The notes beneath the pieces were generated by a model that saw nothing but the letters and a program-made list of their open reading frames with translations, ran no database searches and was not told the origin of the DNA. The position numbers were made by a program, and so were the translations under genes. 64,000 bases of DNA. Source: an uncultured Flaviramulus sp. (GTDB lineage: Bacteria; Bacteroidota; Bacteroidia; Flavobacteriales; Flavobacteriaceae). The stretch covers positions 186,001 to 250,000 of the forward strand of contig CANMUP010000002.1 of the NCBI GenBank assembly GCA_947501105.1, given 5' to 3'. Below are positions 8,727 through 64,000 of the stretch, in pieces (position 1 is the first letter of the stretch; each line of letters begins with the position of its first letter).

Positions 8727-9206
8727 ATGACATATAATAGTTTAGGTTTAAATACCTCCAAAACCAAGGATTTAGCTGATGATTTGAATCATTTATTAGC
8801 TAATTTTCAAATATATTACCAGAATTTAAGAGGCATACATTGGAATATTAAAGGAAAACGTTTTTTTGACTTACATGTTAAGTTTGAAGAGTTATATACC
8901 GATGCCAATATGAAAGTTGATGAAATAGCAGAACGTATATTGACTTTAGGTGAAACACCTTTACATACGTTTGAAGATTATTCAGCGAAAGCTGAAGTGC
9001 AAGTAGGTAAAAATGTTTCTGAAGATGATAAAGCGGTACGATTAATAGTAGAATCTTTAACTCAACTGTTAAAGATTGAAAGGGCTATTTTAGAAAAGGC
9101 TGGTGATGCAAACGATGAAGGAACAAACTCTATGATGAGTGATTTTATAACCGAGCAAGAAAAAACAGTGTGGATGATGAAAGCTTGGTTAAACGAAACA
9201 GTTTAG
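8727..9206 (+). CDS. dps: Dps ferritin-like DNA-protection protein
   Basis: This 159-residue four-helix ferritin-like protein has the inter-subunit ferroxidase residues of Dps in order: His38, His50, Glu54, Asp65 and Glu69, with the same 12-4-11-4 spacing as E. coli Dps (Glu54 replaces the usual Asp). The signature HWNIKGKRFFDLHVKFEELY is intact apart from small changes. Dps dodecamers oxidise Fe(II) with hydrogen peroxide and store iron, limiting Fenton damage. Being divergent to oxyR indicates peroxide-inducible expression. Confidence 0.95.
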   Translation: MTYNSLGLNTSKTKDLADDLNHLLANFQIYYQNLRGIHWNIKGKRFFDLHVKFEELYTDANMKVDEIAERILTLGETPLHTFEDYSAKAEVQVGKNVSEDDKAVRLIVESLTQLLKIERAILEKAGDANDEGTNSMMSDFITEQEKTVWMMKAWLNETV

Positions 9207-36400: not shown

Positions 36401-36414
36401 ATGATAAATGTCAT
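36401..36414. promoter_or_regulatory. candidate Crp/Fnr operator, site 4
   Basis: ATGATAAATGTCAT fits the consensus ATGATnnnTGTCAT seen at hemN, ccoS and ccoI. It sits between the divergent sulfatase and tonB genes. No TTTG lies at the 36.5-bp distance seen at the other sites, so control here is less certain. Confidence 0.5.
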
Positions 36415-36465
36415 AGTTATTCAGTTTGATTCTTAATAATTTTAATGGTATAAAATGTATGAGCC

Positions 36466-52406: not shown

Positions 52407-52420
52407 ATGACATATATCAT
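52407..52420 (+). promoter_or_regulatory. candidate Crp/Fnr operator, site 1 (hemN)
   Basis: ATGACATATATCAT, the reverse complement of ATGATATATGTCAT, fits the consensus ATGATnnnTGTCAT. Its centre (52413.5) lies 36.5 bp before the last base of the hemN -7 element, the same distance as at ccoS and ccoI. Confidence 0.75.
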
Positions 52421-52442: not shown

Positions 52443-52450
52443 TATTTTTG
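52443..52450 (+). promoter_or_regulatory. -7 element of hemN
   Basis: TATTTTTG matches TAnnTTTG and ends 17 bp before the hemN start. There is no clear -33 box, as expected for an activator-dependent promoter with the operator centred near -41.5. Confidence 0.65.
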
Positions 52451-52467: not shown

Positions 52468-53832
52468 ATGTTAAGCAATTTAGTAAACAAGTATAATATT
52501 GCAGGACCGCGGTATACAAGTTACCCAACGGTTCCTTATTGGAATAATGATACATTTTCTTTAAAAAAATGGAAATCGTCTTTAATCACATCTTTTAATG
52601 AAAGTAATTTAGATGAAGGTATAAGTCTTTATATTCACCTTCCTTTTTGCGAAAGTTTATGTACATTTTGTGGTTGTAATAAGCGTATTACAAAACAACA
52701 TAGTGTTGAGTCTCCTTATATGAGTGCGGTTTTAAAAGAATGGGCTTTATATTTAAAACTGTTTGATGAAAAACCAATAATTAAAGAAATGCATCTTGGA
52801 GGTGGCACACCAACCTTTTTTAGTCCTGAAAATTTAAAACGACTTATTAACGGTATTTTAAATACATCTGAGCTTGCAGAAGATTACGAGTTTAGCTTTG
52901 AAGGACACCCAAATAATACAACGCGAGAACATTTACAAGCACTTTACGATGTTGGTTTTAGGCGTGTAAGTTACGGTGTGCAGGACTATAATGAAACGGT
53001 GCAAAAAGCTATACATAGAATTCAACCTTTTGAAAACGTAAAGCGTGCAACAGAATTAGCAAGAGAAATTGGATATACTTCTGTGGGGCATGATATTATT
53101 TTTGGGCTACCATTTCAAACTTTAAATCATGTAAAAGAAACCATATTAAAAACAAAAGAATTGCTTCCAGATAGATTGGCTTTTTATAGTTATGCACACG
53201 TCCCTTGGATAAAAGGAAATGGGCAACGAGGTTTTAAAGATACAGATTTACCGTCAGCAGAATTAAAAAGAGCACAATACGAGTTAGGTAAAGAACTACT
53301 TGCTAAAGTTGGCTACCATGAAATAGGAATGGACCATTTTGCTTTAACTACCGATAGCCTTTATCAATCTATGCAAAATGGTGGTTTGCACAGAAATTTC
53401 ATGGGCTATACAGCATCTAAAACTCAGGCTATGGTTGGACTAGGAGTGTCTTCTATTAGCGATAGTTGGTATGGTTTTGCCCAAAATGTAAAAGGTATCG
53501 AAGAATATTATCATTTAATAAATGAAGATATAATTCCAGTATATAGAGGACATATTTTAAGTGAAGAAGACTTAGTTATAAGAAAGCACATTCTTAATTT
53601 AATGTGCCAGTTTAAAACCTCATGGACTGAAGATTATCTTTATTTTAAAGAAATACCAGAAGCATTAATACAATTAAAAGAAATGGAAGCTGATGGACTA
53701 CTTAAAATAAGCTCGAATAGTATTGAAGTAACTAAAGCTGGGCAACCATTTGTTAGAAATGTTTGTATGGCTTTTGATGTATTATTACAACGAAAACAAC
53801 CTGATGTACAGTTGTTTTCTATGACTGTTTAA
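52468..53832 (+). CDS. hemN: oxygen-independent coproporphyrinogen III oxidase
   Basis: This 454-residue radical SAM enzyme has the cluster motif CESLCTFCGC (Cys61, Cys65, Cys68) in IHLPFCESLCTFCGC, with the HemN signatures NKYNIAGPRYTSYPTVPYW at the start, GGGTPTFF and SFEGHPNNTT. It converts coproporphyrinogen III to protoporphyrinogen IX without O2, supporting haem synthesis at low oxygen. The upstream operator ties it to the cbb3 oxidase. The usp gene starts 18 bp after its stop. Confidence 0.95.
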   Translation: MLSNLVNKYNIAGPRYTSYPTVPYWNNDTFSLKKWKSSLITSFNESNLDEGISLYIHLPFCESLCTFCGCNKRITKQHSVESPYMSAVLKEWALYLKLFDEKPIIKEMHLGGGTPTFFSPENLKRLINGILNTSELAEDYEFSFEGHPNNTTREHLQALYDVGFRRVSYGVQDYNETVQKAIHRIQPFENVKRATELAREIGYTSVGHDIIFGLPFQTLNHVKETILKTKELLPDRLAFYSYAHVPWIKGNGQRGFKDTDLPSAELKRAQYELGKELLAKVGYHEIGMDHFALTTDSLYQSMQNGGLHRNFMGYTASKTQAMVGLGVSSISDSWYGFAQNVKGIEEYYHLINEDIIPVYRGHILSEEDLVIRKHILNLMCQFKTSWTEDYLYFKEIPEALIQLKEMEADGLLKISSNSIEVTKAGQPFVRNVCMAFDVLLQRKQPDVQLFSMTV

Positions 53833-58446: not shown

Positions 58447-60657
58447 TTAGTTTTGAGCGGTTTCTAGATTGTTTACTTTAATGTCGGTTCCTAATCGTTG
58501 TAAATAGGCTATTAATGCTACTATTTCACGATCTTTTATCTCAACATAATTATCCCCATTTGCTAAAGCCTCTTTTTTGCCTTCAATGAAGGATGTAGAT
58601 AAATCAGGATCATCATTTAAGTTTTTAACTATTTTTTCAGCTTGAGCATTCATATTCAGTTGAGCATTTGCTATATCTTCTTCGGAATATGGTACCCCTA
58701 ACTTTACCATAACTTCCATTTTAGCTTCTGTTAAGGATTTATCAAGCTCATTTCTAATAAGCCATTGGTATGCAGGCATTATAGAACCTGGAGAAATTTC
58801 TTGAGGAGTATACATATGTTTAAAATGCCATGAGTCTTGTCTACCACCTGTCAGTTTACCTCCAACACCTTCTCTTGCTAAATCTGGTCCAGTACGTTTA
58901 CTTCCCCAAAGGAATGGGTGATCGTAAACAAATTCTCCTGCTTTTGAATATTCTCCGTAACGTTCTACTTCACTTCTAAAAGGTCTAATCATTTGAGAAT
59001 GACATCCAACACAACCTTCACGGATATAAATATCACGACCTTCTAACTCTAATGGAGTATAGGGTTGCACACTACTTATTGTTGGGATATTAGATTTTAC
59101 CATAATAGTTGGAACAATTTGTACAATACCTCCAATTAAAATAGCTACAGTTGCTAATATTGTTAATTGAACTGGTTTTCTTTCTAGCCAAGTATGCCAT
59201 CCCTCATTAGCTGTACGACGTTTTGAAACGTTTTGTAACGCAGGAGCTTCAGCCAATTCATCTGACACTTTACTACCATTTAGAATGGTTACAATGATGT
59301 TATAAACAAGAATTAACATGCCTACAATGAAAAGCGTTCCGCCTATAGCACGCATCCAATACATTGGCATAATTTCAGTAACCGTTTCTAAAAAGTTCCC
59401 ATAAGTTAATGTTCCATCAGGATTGAATTGTTTCCACATACTAGCTTGTGTAAATCCAGCAACGTACATTGGTAAAGCATACATAATGATACCTAAGGTT
59501 CCAATCCAGAAGTGCAAGTTTGCTAATCCTATAGAGTATAATTTTGTTTTAAATAGTTTTGGTACTAAATAGTAAATCATTCCAAAGGTTAAAAACCCAT
59601 TCCAAGCTAATGCACCAACATGAACGTGTGCAATAATCCAGTCTGTAAAGTGGCCTATGGCATTTACGTTTTTAAGCGATAACAGTGGGCCTTCAAAGGT
59701 TGCCATACCATAACCTGTAATAGCAACTACCATAAATTTTAAAACAGGATCTGTTCTAACTTTATCCCAAGCACCACGAAGCGTTAATAGTCCGTTTATC
59801 ATTCCTCCCCAAGAAGGCATTAATAACATTACTGAAAATGCAACACCAAGGTTTTGAGCCCATTCCGGTAACGCTGTATATAAAAGGTGATGAGGTCCGG
59901 CCCAAATGTATATAAAGATTAATGACCAAAAGTGAACAATAGATAGTCTGTATGAATACACTGGACGGTTTGCTGCTTTAGGAACAAAGTAATACATCAA
60001 CCCTAGAAACGGTGTTGTTAAGAAAAATGCAACCGCATTATGTCCGTACCACCATTGTACTAAAGCATCTTGTACACCAGCGTATACAGAATAACTTTTC
60101 ATAGCACTTACTGGTATTTCTAAACTATTAAAAATATGAAGTACTGCAACAGTTACAAAGGTTGCTATATAAAACCAAATAGCTACATATAAATGACGTT
60201 GTCTTCTTTTTAAAATAGTACCAATTAAATTCCATCCAAATACCACCCAAATAAGTGCAATAGCAATATCAAATGGCCATTCTAATTCGGCATATTCTTT
60301 TGATGTGGTGTAACCTAAAGGCAAAGTAATTGCTGCACCTACAATAATAAGTTGCCAACCCCAAAAGTTGATTTTACTTAATACATCGTTAAACATTCTT
60401 GCTTTAAGTAAGCGTTGCGATGAGTAGTAAACACCTGCAAAAATAGCATTACCTACAAAGGCAAAAATAACTGCATTGGTGTGCAATGGTCTTAAACGCC
60501 CAAAACTTAACCAGGAAATACCATCGGTTAGGTTAGGGAATAAAAACATAAACGCCAGTAGTAAACCTACTAGCATGCCTACAACTCCCCAAAGCATAGT
60601 GGCGTAGAGGAAATTTTTAACGATTTTGTTATCGTAATGAAACTGTTGTACTTCCAT
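58447..60657 (-). CDS. ccoNO: fused cbb3 oxidase subunits I and II (CcoN-CcoO)
   Basis: This 736-residue fusion joins CcoN (about 1-480) to CcoO (about 500-736). CcoN has haem and Cu ligands His59, His206, His256-His257 (GPHH) and His344-His346 (IIAHVHVGAL). CcoO has one haem c (CVGCH at 549-553, with axial Met627 in GSIMPAYQ). The enzyme reduces O2 with high affinity and pumps protons. Fusion of the two subunits is known from Bacteroidota. Confidence 0.95.
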   Translation of the reverse strand: MEVQQFHYDNKIVKNFLYATMLWGVVGMLVGLLLAFMFLFPNLTDGISWLSFGRLRPLHTNAVIFAFVGNAIFAGVYYSSQRLLKARMFNDVLSKINFWGWQLIIVGAAITLPLGYTTSKEYAELEWPFDIAIALIWVVFGWNLIGTILKRRQRHLYVAIWFYIATFVTVAVLHIFNSLEIPVSAMKSYSVYAGVQDALVQWWYGHNAVAFFLTTPFLGLMYYFVPKAANRPVYSYRLSIVHFWSLIFIYIWAGPHHLLYTALPEWAQNLGVAFSVMLLMPSWGGMINGLLTLRGAWDKVRTDPVLKFMVVAITGYGMATFEGPLLSLKNVNAIGHFTDWIIAHVHVGALAWNGFLTFGMIYYLVPKLFKTKLYSIGLANLHFWIGTLGIIMYALPMYVAGFTQASMWKQFNPDGTLTYGNFLETVTEIMPMYWMRAIGGTLFIVGMLILVYNIIVTILNGSKVSDELAEAPALQNVSKRRTANEGWHTWLERKPVQLTILATVAILIGGIVQIVPTIMVKSNIPTISSVQPYTPLELEGRDIYIREGCVGCHSQMIRPFRSEVERYGEYSKAGEFVYDHPFLWGSKRTGPDLAREGVGGKLTGGRQDSWHFKHMYTPQEISPGSIMPAYQWLIRNELDKSLTEAKMEVMVKLGVPYSEEDIANAQLNMNAQAEKIVKNLNDDPDLSTSFIEGKKEALANGDNYVEIKDREIVALIAYLQRLGTDIKVNNLETAQN

Positions 60658-60662
60658 AATAA

Positions 60663-60851
60663 TTAATTGGTCTTTTTAGCTTTTAATGATGGTTTTGATT
60701 GTTCTTTAACTAGTTCGTCTTCAAAAAGCATACGAACAGAAGGTGTATAGCTGTCATCAAATTGTCCTTTTTTTACAGCATAGATAAATGCAATAAAAAA
60801 GCCAACAGCAACAATAATACTGATAGTCAATAAAATATATATAACGCTCAT
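60663..60851 (-). CDS. ccoS: CcoS-like cbb3 maturation protein
   Basis: This 62-residue protein begins with a membrane helix (IYILLTISIIVAVGFFIAFIYAV) and the typical motif KKGQFDD..TPSVRMLFED. CcoS helps insert haem and copper into CcoN. It is the first gene of the operon, 5 bp before ccoNO, and is preceded by the operator and -7 element. Confidence 0.92.
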   Translation of the reverse strand: MSVIYILLTISIIVAVGFFIAFIYAVKKGQFDDSYTPSVRMLFEDELVKEQSKPSLKAKKTN

Positions 60852-60871: not shown

Positions 60872-60879
60872 CAAAATTA
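60872..60879 (-). promoter_or_regulatory. -7 element of the cbb3 operon
   Basis: On the minus strand this reads TAATTTTG (consensus TAnnTTTG), 20 bp before the ccoS start. Confidence 0.65.
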
Positions 60880-60901: not shown

Positions 60902-60915
60902 ATGATTTTTGTCAT
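60902..60915 (-). promoter_or_regulatory. candidate Crp/Fnr operator, site 2 (ccoS)
   Basis: ATGATTTTTGTCAT fits ATGATnnnTGTCAT, with an AAAAT flank shared with sites 1 and 3. Its centre is 36.5 bp from the last base of the -7 element. Confidence 0.75.
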
Positions 60916-61068: not shown

Positions 61069-63444
61069 CTATTTTAATTTTCTTCCTATAATGTTTGTAG
61101 CAATAGTTGTAAATACTACTATACTAATAGAACTTAAAGGCATTAAAATAGCAGCCACAACTGGAGCTAATTGTCCTGTTACCGCGAAATAAAGCCCAAT
61201 AATGTTATAAATGAATGATAACAGGAAACTCCATTTTATAATTTTTATAGCTGATTTAGAAATCTTTATATAGTTAAATAATTGGTTGAATTTTGAAGCA
61301 TCTAAAATGGCATCACAGGCTGGAGAAAACACATTCACATTTTCTGAAATAGCAATGCCTACATTACTTTGTGCTAAAGCGCCTGCATCATTCAATCCAT
61401 CGCCAACCATTAATACACGGGCTCCCTCAGATTGATGATACTTTATATATTCTAGTTTATCTTCTGGCTTTTGATTGAATAACAACTTCGTTTTTGTTGG
61501 TAACAATTTGGTTAGATTTTCTTTTTCACCTGAATTATCCCCAGAAAGAATAACTAAATCATATTCTTTTTTTAAAGCATTGAATAATTGAGACAGTCCT
61601 TTTCTGTAAGCGTTGTAAAAAGTAAATTTTCCTTTGTATTGTTTATTACTGCTAATATGTACGGTTGTGTTTAACGTTGCTGTATCTGAAGTATAACCTA
61701 CAAAAGAAGCAGAACCTACTTTTATATGCTCTTCTTTGTGTTGTGCTTCAATGCCTTTGCCTAAGTGTTCTTCAAAAGTGTCTAACGAAACAATATTGTG
61801 CTCACTTAAAAGGTTGTATAAAGATCTGCTTAAAGGATGATTTGAGCCTCTTAATGTGCTCTTTAATAGTGACTCTTCTTTTATAGAAAGTTCTACTCCT
61901 TCATAGTTGATAGAGGTTTCCTCATTTGCAGTTATAGTTCCTGTTTTGTCAAAAATTATGGTATTTATTTTTGCTAACTGTTCAATTACACTAGCATTTT
62001 TTAAGTAGAACTTTTTCTTGCCTAAAATGCGTAGAACATTTCCAAAAGTAAATGGAGCAGAAAGCGCGATGGCACATGGACATGCTATAATTAAAACTGA
62101 TGTAAAAACATTTAGGGCTTTACTAGGATCTGAAATTAACCAATATGTAGTAGCTACTATGGCTATAGTTAAAATGATGATTGTAAAACGCTTACTAATA
62201 CTGTTAGTAATATTTGTAAAAGCTAACTCTTTATTAGTTTTAAATACATCGTTGCTCCAAAGTTGGGTTAAATAACTTTGCTCTACAGATTTTAAAACAT
62301 CTACTTCAATGGTGCCGTTAAGTTGTTTGCCACCAGCAAAAAGTTTATCACCAGATTGTTTAGAAACCGTTTTAGATTCCCCTGTAACAAAACTATAATC
62401 TATTCGAGCTTTACCTTTAATTAAAATACAATCAACAGGAATTAATTCTTCATTCCTAATAAGGAGTCTGTCTCCCTTCTTTATATCGTATACCTGAATG
62501 GATTCTTCTTTTTTATCGACATTTATTTTTGTAATTCCGATAGGGAAATAGGATTTGTAATCTCGCTCAAAAGATAAGAATGTATAAGTTTTTTGTTGAA
62601 AAAATTTTCCGAGTAACAAAAAGAAAATTAAGCCTGTTAAACTATCAAAAAAGCCTGTGCCAATATCAAATATAATTTCAAAGGAACTTCTTAAAAATAA
62701 TACTAATACTCCAAGTACTATGGGAACATCAATATTTAAAATTTTAGAACGAAGCCCTTTGTATGCAGAAATAAAATAATCTTGAGCCGAATAAAAAACA
62801 ACAGGAACCGAAAAGACAAACATAAGCCATCTAAAAACTGGAGCATATCGTTCAATCCAAAAACCACTCACTTGAAAATATTCAGGAAAAGAAAGAAACA
62901 TCACATTACCAAATGCAAAACCAGCAACGCCAAGCTTATAAATAAGCGACCTATCAATTTGTTTTTTACCAATACTATAATCGTCTAAACTTATATAAGG
63001 CTCGTAACCAATACTACTTAGTAATGTCACTAAGCTTTTGAGTGTAATTGTTTTAGAATTATAAGTGACTCTAACTGTCTTTTTTCCGAAATTGACTATT
63101 GATGAACTTATAGAAGCATTCAATTTATTTAAATTTTCTAAAATCCAAATACAAGAACTACAATGAATATTAGGAATGTATAAGTTTATAATTTGTATTT
63201 CATCATCATTAAACTCTAATAACTGTTCTACAATTTTTTGATTTTCTAAAAAATTATATTTGCCTTCTATTTCTTTAGGTGTCGTACCAGAGGCTTGTTG
63301 CAAGTCATAGTAACAAGTTAAATCGTTTGTAGAAAAAATTTCGTAAACAGTTTTACAACCATTACAACAAAAAGATTTGTCATCAAATGTGATTTTTGAA
63401 GATGTAGAATCTAAACCACAATGAAAACATGTGTTTTTATTCAT
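61069..63444 (-). CDS. ccoI: CcoI/FixI copper-transporting P-type ATPase
   Basis: This 791-residue P1B-ATPase starts at MNKNTCFHCG (63444), not the longer frame at 63480, because the family begins with this Cys-rich zinc-finger-like block (CFHC...CCNGC). A metal site CSSC (95-98) follows, then the CPC transport motif (455-457), DKTGT (499-503), TGES (354-357), HP (536-537) and GDGLND (691-696). It supplies copper for cbb3 assembly. It has its own operator and is divergent from a Crp/Fnr gene. Confidence 0.93.
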   Translation of the reverse strand: MNKNTCFHCGLDSTSSKITFDDKSFCCNGCKTVYEIFSTNDLTCYYDLQQASGTTPKEIEGKYNFLENQKIVEQLLEFNDDEIQIINLYIPNIHCSSCIWILENLNKLNASISSSIVNFGKKTVRVTYNSKTITLKSLVTLLSSIGYEPYISLDDYSIGKKQIDRSLIYKLGVAGFAFGNVMFLSFPEYFQVSGFWIERYAPVFRWLMFVFSVPVVFYSAQDYFISAYKGLRSKILNIDVPIVLGVLVLFLRSSFEIIFDIGTGFFDSLTGLIFFLLLGKFFQQKTYTFLSFERDYKSYFPIGITKINVDKKEESIQVYDIKKGDRLLIRNEELIPVDCILIKGKARIDYSFVTGESKTVSKQSGDKLFAGGKQLNGTIEVDVLKSVEQSYLTQLWSNDVFKTNKELAFTNITNSISKRFTIIILTIAIVATTYWLISDPSKALNVFTSVLIIACPCAIALSAPFTFGNVLRILGKKKFYLKNASVIEQLAKINTIIFDKTGTITANEETSINYEGVELSIKEESLLKSTLRGSNHPLSRSLYNLLSEHNIVSLDTFEEHLGKGIEAQHKEEHIKVGSASFVGYTSDTATLNTTVHISSNKQYKGKFTFYNAYRKGLSQLFNALKKEYDLVILSGDNSGEKENLTKLLPTKTKLLFNQKPEDKLEYIKYHQSEGARVLMVGDGLNDAGALAQSNVGIAISENVNVFSPACDAILDASKFNQLFNYIKISKSAIKIIKWSFLLSFIYNIIGLYFAVTGQLAPVVAAILMPLSSISIVVFTTIATNIIGRKLK

Positions 63445-63470
63445 TATTATTTGCTCATTTATACCTGTAA

Positions 63471-63478
63471 CAAAAGTC
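63471..63478 (-). promoter_or_regulatory. possible -7 element of ccoI
   Basis: On the minus strand this reads GACTTTTG, matching only the TTTG half of TAnnTTTG, but it lies at the exact 36.5-bp distance from the operator found at hemN and ccoS. Confidence 0.45.
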
Positions 63479-63500: not shown

Positions 63501-63514
63501 ATGATATTTGTCAT
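63501..63514 (-). promoter_or_regulatory. candidate Crp/Fnr operator, site 3 (ccoI/fnr)
   Basis: ATGATATTTGTCAT fits ATGATnnnTGTCAT and shares AAAAT and GTTT flanks with site 2. It lies between ccoI and the divergent Crp/Fnr gene. The spacing fits ccoI; for the plus-strand gene no TTTG lies at that distance, so there it may act as an autoregulatory site. Confidence 0.7.
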
Positions 63515-63550
63515 GTTTTATTTATTTTTACAAAACACGAATTATTAGTT

Positions 63551-64000
63551 ATGGGCAAGTGCGAACAATGTATTATAAAACAGTTTAATTCTCTTAAAGC
63601 ATTGACAACAGATGAGTTAGTGCGTATTTCAAGTTGTAAAACATCGATGACTATAAAAAAGGGCGATGTTATTTTTGAGGAAGGAGAAACGCTAAATGGT
63701 GTTTATTGTGTTAAAGATGGCATTTGCAAACTATCAAAGTTAAGTGCTAATGGTAAAGACCAAATAGTAAAAATGGTTGTTAAAGGTCAATTATTAGGAC
63801 AGCGTTCTCTTATTTCTGATGAAAGTTCTAATTTACAAGCTGTAGCACTAAATGATATGGAGGTTTGTTTTATTCCGAAAAGTGAAATTATTGGAGATTT
63901 ACAAAAGAACTCAAAATTTTCTTTTGAAGTATTAAAAGAAATGGCACATGATTTAAAGGAAGCTGATGATGTAATTGTTAATATGGCTCAAAAATCGGTT
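63551..64000 (+). CDS. Crp/Fnr-family regulator, 3' truncated by window edge
   Basis: The first 150 codons are visible. The protein has an N-terminal CEQC motif (residues 4-7), a nucleotide-binding-like beta roll (IKKGDVIFEEGETLNGVYCVKDGICKLSKLSANGKDQIVKMVVKGQLLGQRSLI) and the beginning of the dimer helix. The DNA-binding domain is outside the window. Its place next to ccoI and the operator suggests it controls the low-oxygen genes. The Cys pair could carry a redox or metal function, but the four-Cys set of Fnr is not complete in the visible part. Confidence 0.88.
   Translation, partial: MGKCEQCIIKQFNSLKALTTDELVRISSCKTSMTIKKGDVIFEEGETLNGVYCVKDGICKLSKLSANGKDQIVKMVVKGQLLGQRSLISDESSNLQAVALNDMEVCFIPKSEIIGDLQKNSKFSFEVLKEMAHDLKEADDVIVNMAQKSV

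Follow-up and report, generated by a model that had tools for sequence, protein, structure and literature searches.

A probable class II ATGAY-type operator and a predicted FNR variant for low-oxygen respiration in a flavobacterium

The window, a 64-kb stretch of DNA from an uncultured Flaviramulus sp. that was analysed as a whole, carries hemN, encoding an oxygen-independent coproporphyrinogen III oxidase (52468–53832, + strand; TIGR00538, 438.9 bits vs. a cut-off of 324.95), and a set of cbb3 oxidase genes on the – strand. The latter comprise a ccoNO fusion of oxidase subunits I and II (58447–60657; NF011053, 1338.6 bits vs. a cut-off of 1080), ccoS (60663–60851; PF03597 and TIGR00847, both above cut-offs) and ccoI (61069–63444), whose product is a P1B-type metal ATPase with N-terminal metal-binding domains (PF00122, PF12156 and PF00702 above cut-offs, PF00403 just under at 24.4 vs. 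24.8). A Crp/Fnr gene had been proposed to lie beside the ccoI promoter, and the gene at 63551 bears this out, with PF00027 (66.8 bits) and PF13545 (62.5 bits) both above their cut-offs. The first 150 of the 225 codons of this fnr-like regulator are within the window (63551–64000, + strand), and the gene is complete in L011 (1501–2178).

An earlier sequence-only reading had described three 14-mers as operators, and these are present at 60902–60915 and 63501–63514 (+ strand) and at 52407–52420 (– strand). Read in the direction of the gene, all three are ATGAC-N4-ATCAT and have the same orientation relative to transcription: ATGACATATATCAT precedes hemN (+ strand), its centre 54.5 bp from the hemN ATG, ATGACAAAAATCAT lies upstream of ccoS-ccoNO (– strand), and ATGACAAATATCAT faces ccoI (– strand) in an operator common to ccoI and fnr. 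The corresponding -7 elements are TATTTTTG for hemN (52443–52450, +), TAATTTTG for ccoS (60872–60879, –) and GACTTTTG for ccoI (63471–63478, –), the last without its first T. For each of them the distance from the box centre to the last G is 36.5 bp, exactly as that reading had it. The AAAAT that it placed before each box is also present, on the gene-proximal side at about -34 to -29; as this is the slot of the -33 element, AAAAT was rejected as part of the operator. The pattern occurs exactly a fourth time, outside those three sites, as ATGATAAATGTCAT at 36401–36414 (+ strand) before a tonB-like gene, with TAATTTTA (36437–36444) at 36.5 bp; on the other side lies a divergent gene, called sulfatase-like on the strength of its translation alone. 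Promoter positions given here take the last base of TAnnTTTG to be at -5, as stated for Flavobacterium psychrophilum (PMC9723704). By geometry alone, the 36.5 bp from centre to last base then places the box near -41.5, the class II position.

Within the window, the earlier pattern with up to 2 mismatches is mildly enriched (40 matches vs. 30.0 expected, sd 5.6), and 5 of 100 shuffled windows reached 40 matches. When the box is combined with TAnnTTTR at 36.5 bp, there are three occurrences (hemN, ccoS and tonB), compared with a mean of 0.01 and a maximum of 1 in 100 first-order Markov sequences; ccoI is not among them, its -7 element lacking the first T. A genome-wide motif scan, proposed earlier as a check, gave a divided answer: the bare palindrome ATGAYN4RTCAT is not enriched in the source genome (42 matches vs. 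43 for the reversed control) and was rejected as evidence, whereas the ATGAY palindrome with TAnnTTTG at the fixed spacing occurs 7 times vs. 0 for the reversed control. The pattern ATGAYANNTRTCAT has 10 matches genome-wide vs. 4 in the control. Forty of the 42 palindrome sites were classified, leaving out the ccoS site and a window site at 8779 and treating L010 as intergenic on the basis of its ATG start; 26 lie within open frames and 14 are intergenic. TAnnTTTR at 36.5 bp accompanies 8 of the 40, and all 8 are intergenic. The relaxed composite HTGAYN4RTCAK-N22-TAnnTTTR, allowing at most one mismatch, is found 43 times in the source genome vs. 18 for the control. All 12 perfect relaxed composites are intergenic, and in each the distance from the centre to a downstream start codon is 41.5 to 98.5 bp. 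Half of the one-mismatch composites examined (9/18, out of 31) are intragenic.

The spacing is also sharp across genomes. Among 41 genomes of the family, the box followed by TAnnTTTG at any gap from 7 to 37 gives 229 matches vs. 30 for the reversed pattern. A gap of 22, which corresponds to the 36.5 bp spacing, accounts for 98 among the 150 matches listed of these 229, compared with a mean of 1.7 over each of the 30 other gaps; the next commonest gaps in the same list, 21 and 23, have 6 each. With the gap fixed at 22, 119 genomes of the class yield 134 matches, in 50 genomes, vs. 1 for the reversed pattern. The 89 composite promoters of nosZ, ccoS and hemN show a T-run at -33 to -30, the place of the -33 element, and A as the commonest base at the predicted start.

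In the source genome, perfect composites precede two nos-linked genes (a cytochrome c gene upstream of nosZ and a small gene after the nos genes) and nirK, thioredoxin-like, CBS-domain, tonB, hemN, ccoS, Usp and ompW genes, as well as permease-like and hibernation-factor-like genes, both named from their translations with no profile. One-mismatch composites include those of ccoI, a CoA transferase gene, a cytochrome oxidase subunit III-like gene (named from its translation) and a NapD-like gene that falls under the Pfam cut-off. A box is also present at hemA, with no -7 element at 36.5 bp. The predicted regulon extends to denitrification, which was absent from the earlier reading. Near the nos genes there are two boxes 273 bp apart (G000:C1:29565 and 29838; L016, L017), one within the last gene of the nos run, the other before the small gene that follows; a -7 element at 36.5 bp accompanies the latter alone.

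Conservation was assessed in 80 cbb3 loci, the best of 587 by CcoNO similarity, together with the window. The 300 bp in front of the gene contain a perfect box for 35 of 73 ccoS, 22 of 57 ccoI, 12 of 28 hemN and 20 of 42 Fnr-like genes (counting REC fusions), compared with a mean of 0.1 and a maximum of 1 for each of 11 permuted half-sites. At 9 or more of the 10 letters the counts are 53, 40, 16 and 28, respectively, vs. control means of 1.4 to 4.2. Perfect boxes number 0/78 for ccoP, 1/67 for ccoG and 0/71 for ccoH, genes downstream in the operon. CcoNO has a box upstream in 35/79, as expected for loci in which the ccoS promoter sits immediately before it. Usp-like genes in these loci have a perfect box in 4 of 27 cases and a 9-letter box in 16, and CTGAY in the distal half is a common near-variant. 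Among the same loci, distant ones (Pedobacter, Larkinella and others) are mostly without the box. At 9 or more letters, ccoP upstream regions (L079–L158) contain a box in 10/78 vs. a permuted-control mean of 1.6.

The nosZ genes served as an independent test set that was not used in defining the motif. A clade II nosZ model has matches in 80 of 149 genomes of the family, above cut-off in 69. In 28 of the 30 best loci, the 1.5 kb preceding the nosZ match contain the box followed by TAnnTTTR at gap 22; the corresponding counts are 0/150 for five permuted cores and 0 to 2 for other gaps. One genome without a close match to the CxxC regulator, G029, has a box at nosZ nonetheless (L209).

The operator between ccoI and fnr (63501–63514) is predicted to serve both genes. 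Toward ccoI it lies at about -41.5; toward fnr it reads ATGATATTTGTCAT and would lie at about -27.5 of a candidate promoter whose -7 element, TATTTTTA (63523–63530, + strand), has its last base 22.5 bp from the operator centre. In this position, the active protein would probably hold down the expression of its own gene. A site with the first and last letters free is present in the 160 bp upstream of fnr in 53 of 61 loci and absent from the other 8. Among the 53, TAnnTTTR on the fnr side is at 22.5 to 25.5 bp in 35, placing the operator inside the promoter, where repression is expected, and at 36.5 bp in 7, where activation is expected; 11 have neither geometry. All 7 loci with the self-activating geometry belong to one 13-row clade (support 100/98) that contains Arenibacter and Maribacter rows and also includes 5 undecided rows and 1 of the repressing type. 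On the ccoI side, the first T of the -7 element is missing in 32 of 34 loci from several genera and present in 2; the same T is present in 44/44 ccoS and 17/18 hemN elements. This recurrent absence could make ccoI fully dependent on the activator. In the ccoI leader (around 63450–63470), a AGGTATAAWTGAGCAAA-like stretch right after the predicted start is conserved in several genera (L050–L062); in the source genome it contains ATG-AGC-AAA-TAA, and some others have no such start codon.

With its cNMP-binding-like domain and Crp-type HTH, the regulator belongs to the Crp/Fnr superfamily, and Foldseek matches it to Crp, GlxR and FNR structures. It does not reach the cut-off of the NCBIfam Fnr model (PRK11161; 88.4 vs. 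228 bits). Canonical FNR has an N-terminal C-x2-C-x5-C motif and a beta-roll cysteine (C20, C23, C29 and C122 in E. coli numbering), and its dimerisation is governed by an oxygen-labile [4Fe-4S] cluster. In the regulator, C4, C7, C53 and C106 are invariant in 54/54 aligned orthologues, which were hand-chosen without REC fusions, several near-copies and the badly called starts of L078 and L135; these last two proteins have all four cysteines. Compared with Aliivibrio fischeri FNR, C4 and C7 align with its CxxC, C106 aligns with the equivalent of Cys122, and C53 stands opposite the alanine of YAIRSG. There is no cysteine opposite the third N-terminal cysteine of FNR, and Cys53 is an extra, invariant one, so the canonical FNR pattern is absent. 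An AlphaFold model (mean pLDDT 91.6) aligns with A. fischeri holo-FNR (5e44) over 225 columns with a TM score of 0.82 and places C53 in strand 50–56 and C106 in strand 103–109, strands 3 and 8, which we take to be neighbours by jelly-roll topology. The recognition helix, with E191, I194 and R195 invariant in the same 54 orthologues, is E-x-x-I-R vs. VETISR in A. fischeri FNR, and its proposed box is ATGAY, not TTGAT. Judged from its sequence, the regulator probably does the work of an FNR, but its cysteine layout, helix, box and profile score each set it apart from canonical FNR.

The FNR box is TTGAT-N4-ATCAA. The corresponding TTGAY...RTCAA composite is absent from the source genome (0 vs. 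7 for ATGAY), and the 80 cbb3 loci and window have 0 of this type vs. 100 relaxed ATGAY composites; for these reasons, the canonical FNR-like box was rejected as the code here. Over the 119 genomes of the class, the TTGAY composite has 27 matches vs. 3 in the control, against 134 for ATGAY, and it may be in use in some other genomes. Three genomes (G088, G105 and G137) have 3 to 4 TTGAY-type composites each, so an FNR-like code at the same spacing is possible in some Bacteroidia.

Several known systems resemble the one described here. The FNR proteins of E. coli and A. fischeri share with the regulator the Crp fold with HTH, the N-terminal CxxC, the Cys122 equivalent and class II spacing, but they have Cys29, and where the regulator has Cys53, A. 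fischeri FNR has the alanine of YAIRSG; their helix, E-x-x-S-R, goes with a TTGAT box, whereas E-x-x-I-R goes with ATGAY here. E. coli FNR targets respiratory and haem genes and OmpW, all shared with the regulon here. FixK and FixK2 control the cbb3 oxidase, its pump and haem genes, and FixK2 is not known to have iron-sulfur cysteines. Autorepression of rhizobial fixK2 can be likened to the self-repressing geometry at fnr, but FixK2 is induced through FixLJ (PMC9104804). The Acidithiobacillus ferrooxidans FNR is also without Cys29; the study concerned considers a serine ligand and disfavours an alternative Cys40 (PMC6659574), whereas the protein here has an extra invariant cysteine in the beta-roll. 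Bacillus subtilis Fnr has likewise non-canonical ligands, with three cysteines for its [4Fe-4S] cluster, but its sensor part is C-terminal (PMC8510549). The same study uses ‘MalR’-type as a label for Flavobacteriales Crp/Fnr homologues; the protein here, which may or may not be one of them, differs in its four invariant cysteines and predicted respiratory regulon. In the open-licence literature searched (titles and abstract openings), we found no description of the box or the cysteine set in Bacteroidetes.

Taken together, it is very probable that ATGAY-N4-RTCAT is the operator of the regulator at 63551, an FNR variant acting as class II activator of a low-oxygen regulon. Strong support for the earlier proposal that the box is a class II operator of a Crp/Fnr activator comes from a spacing sharp to one base over whole genomes, from conservation before ccoS, ccoI and hemN in other genera and from co-occurrence with matches to the neighbouring regulator; box, spacing, conservation, co-occurrence, gene content and cysteine invariance were all computed directly. 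A dimer would bind near -41.5 at hemN, ccoS, ccoI and about ten more promoters, directly upstream of TAnnTTTG, and the geometry predicts class II activation of these promoters. From the invariance of the cysteines and the fold, the probable sensor of low oxygen (or NO) is an iron-sulfur cluster on Cys4, Cys7, Cys106 and the relocated Cys53. A drop in oxygen would then switch on the high-affinity cbb3 oxidase together with its metal pump, haem synthesis by the oxygen-independent route and the reduction of nitrite and nitrous oxide wherever these pathways occur. From the shared operator, ccoI would be activated while fnr is probably self-limited. Binding, direction of regulation, cluster and signal are predictions here. 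Regulons for low oxygen typically include the cbb3 oxidase, its pump and hemN. We infer the ‘low-oxygen’ signal from the targets, the cysteines and the published finding that F. psychrophilum induces cbb3 oxidase and haem genes when oxygen is limiting (PMC9723704).

The box might instead be used mainly by a different Crp-type regulator, such as a REC-Crp fusion near the cbb3 genes, with the CxxC regulator secondary. Ten cbb3 loci have such fusions (L080, L102, L128, L131, L136, L140, L141, L147, L149 and L155), and in this small set of uncontrolled kinship the helix type tracks the boxes: at least one relaxed ATGAY-type box precedes a cco gene in 6/6 loci with E-x-x-I-R fusions, and the four E-x-x-S-R fusions (L128, L131, L141 and L155) have 0/4 with a box within 250 bp of cco or hemN genes. 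TTGAY boxes were expected at the E-x-x-S-R loci, and none was found. The helix of the L102 fusion, AGIATESLIR, is similar to that of the regulator, and L102 and L149, stretches that lack a CxxC gene, have 7 relaxed composites each. It may be that REC-Crp fusions of other genomes read the same box. Among the 119 genomes, those whose best match to the regulator alignment lies between 1e-62 and 1e-40, mostly REC-Crp fusions as judged by frame length, have composites in 14/43 (23 matches), and G029, without a close CxxC match, has three listed composites, all at gap 22. However, composites are commoner in genomes with a close CxxC regulator (best match below 1e-62; 36/50, 111 matches; Fisher p 0.0002), although the E-value class limits were chosen after the table was seen. 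Fourteen of these 50 genomes have no perfect composite, and composites are absent from the 8 genomes with a weaker match and the 18 without one. The CxxC gene itself has an upstream box in 53/61 loci, and the source genome has boxes with no REC-Crp fusion among the matches listed (3 of 5). Among other Crp-like proteins of the source genome, the helix comparison covered L012 and L013, which are without the E-x-x-I-R helix and were judged unlikely box binders; L014, in a 615-aa frame, is a further weak match. A main user other than the CxxC regulator is quite improbable.

That the regulator is the right one but responds to NO or thiol redox, its four cysteines binding another metal or forming disulfides, is unlikely, though a good deal less so. 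The boxes at nirK and the nosZ operon and the missing Cys29 ligand position speak for it; against it, three FNR ligand positions are kept and cbb3, its pump and hemN are the targets, to which the F. psychrophilum response to oxygen limitation adds. Chance AT-rich palindromes beside TAnnTTTG-like stretches would agree with a bare palindrome as common as its reversed control (42 vs. 43), but the spacing peak, the 134 vs. 1 matches and the 28/30 nosZ loci refute this, leaving it a negligible prospect.

A wider proposal is made tentatively, as a serious possibility somewhat short of an expectation: Bacteroidetes would have their own type of oxygen-sensing FNR, in which the third N-terminal ligand has moved to Cys53 of the beta-roll, in the strand beside that of Cys106, and E-x-x-I-R reads the ATGAY code, providing a common switch for cbb3 and clade II nosZ. 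One operator would activate ccoI and decide whether fnr represses or activates itself, a sign that would have switched from the former to the latter in one flavobacterial clade; E-x-x-I-R REC-Crp fusions would bring another signal to these boxes. No description of a switch to microaerobic respiration and N2O reduction in these bacteria was found in the open-licence literature searched.

The sequence-only reading was correct in its finding, which appears to point to a widespread class II regulon in flavobacteria; the present analysis adds the denitrification targets, the operator in the regulator's own promoter, the non-FNR box and cysteines, and the REC-Crp fusions elsewhere. With a promoter code sharp to one base, the regulon can be read from any genome. 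Screens that require the canonical FNR cysteine pattern would presumably miss these proteins. The moved cluster ligand, if true, would be an example of how FNR-type oxygen sensing can be rebuilt, and the change of one operator, in a single clade, from a self-repressing to a self-activating geometry offers a case of regulatory rewiring open to direct testing.
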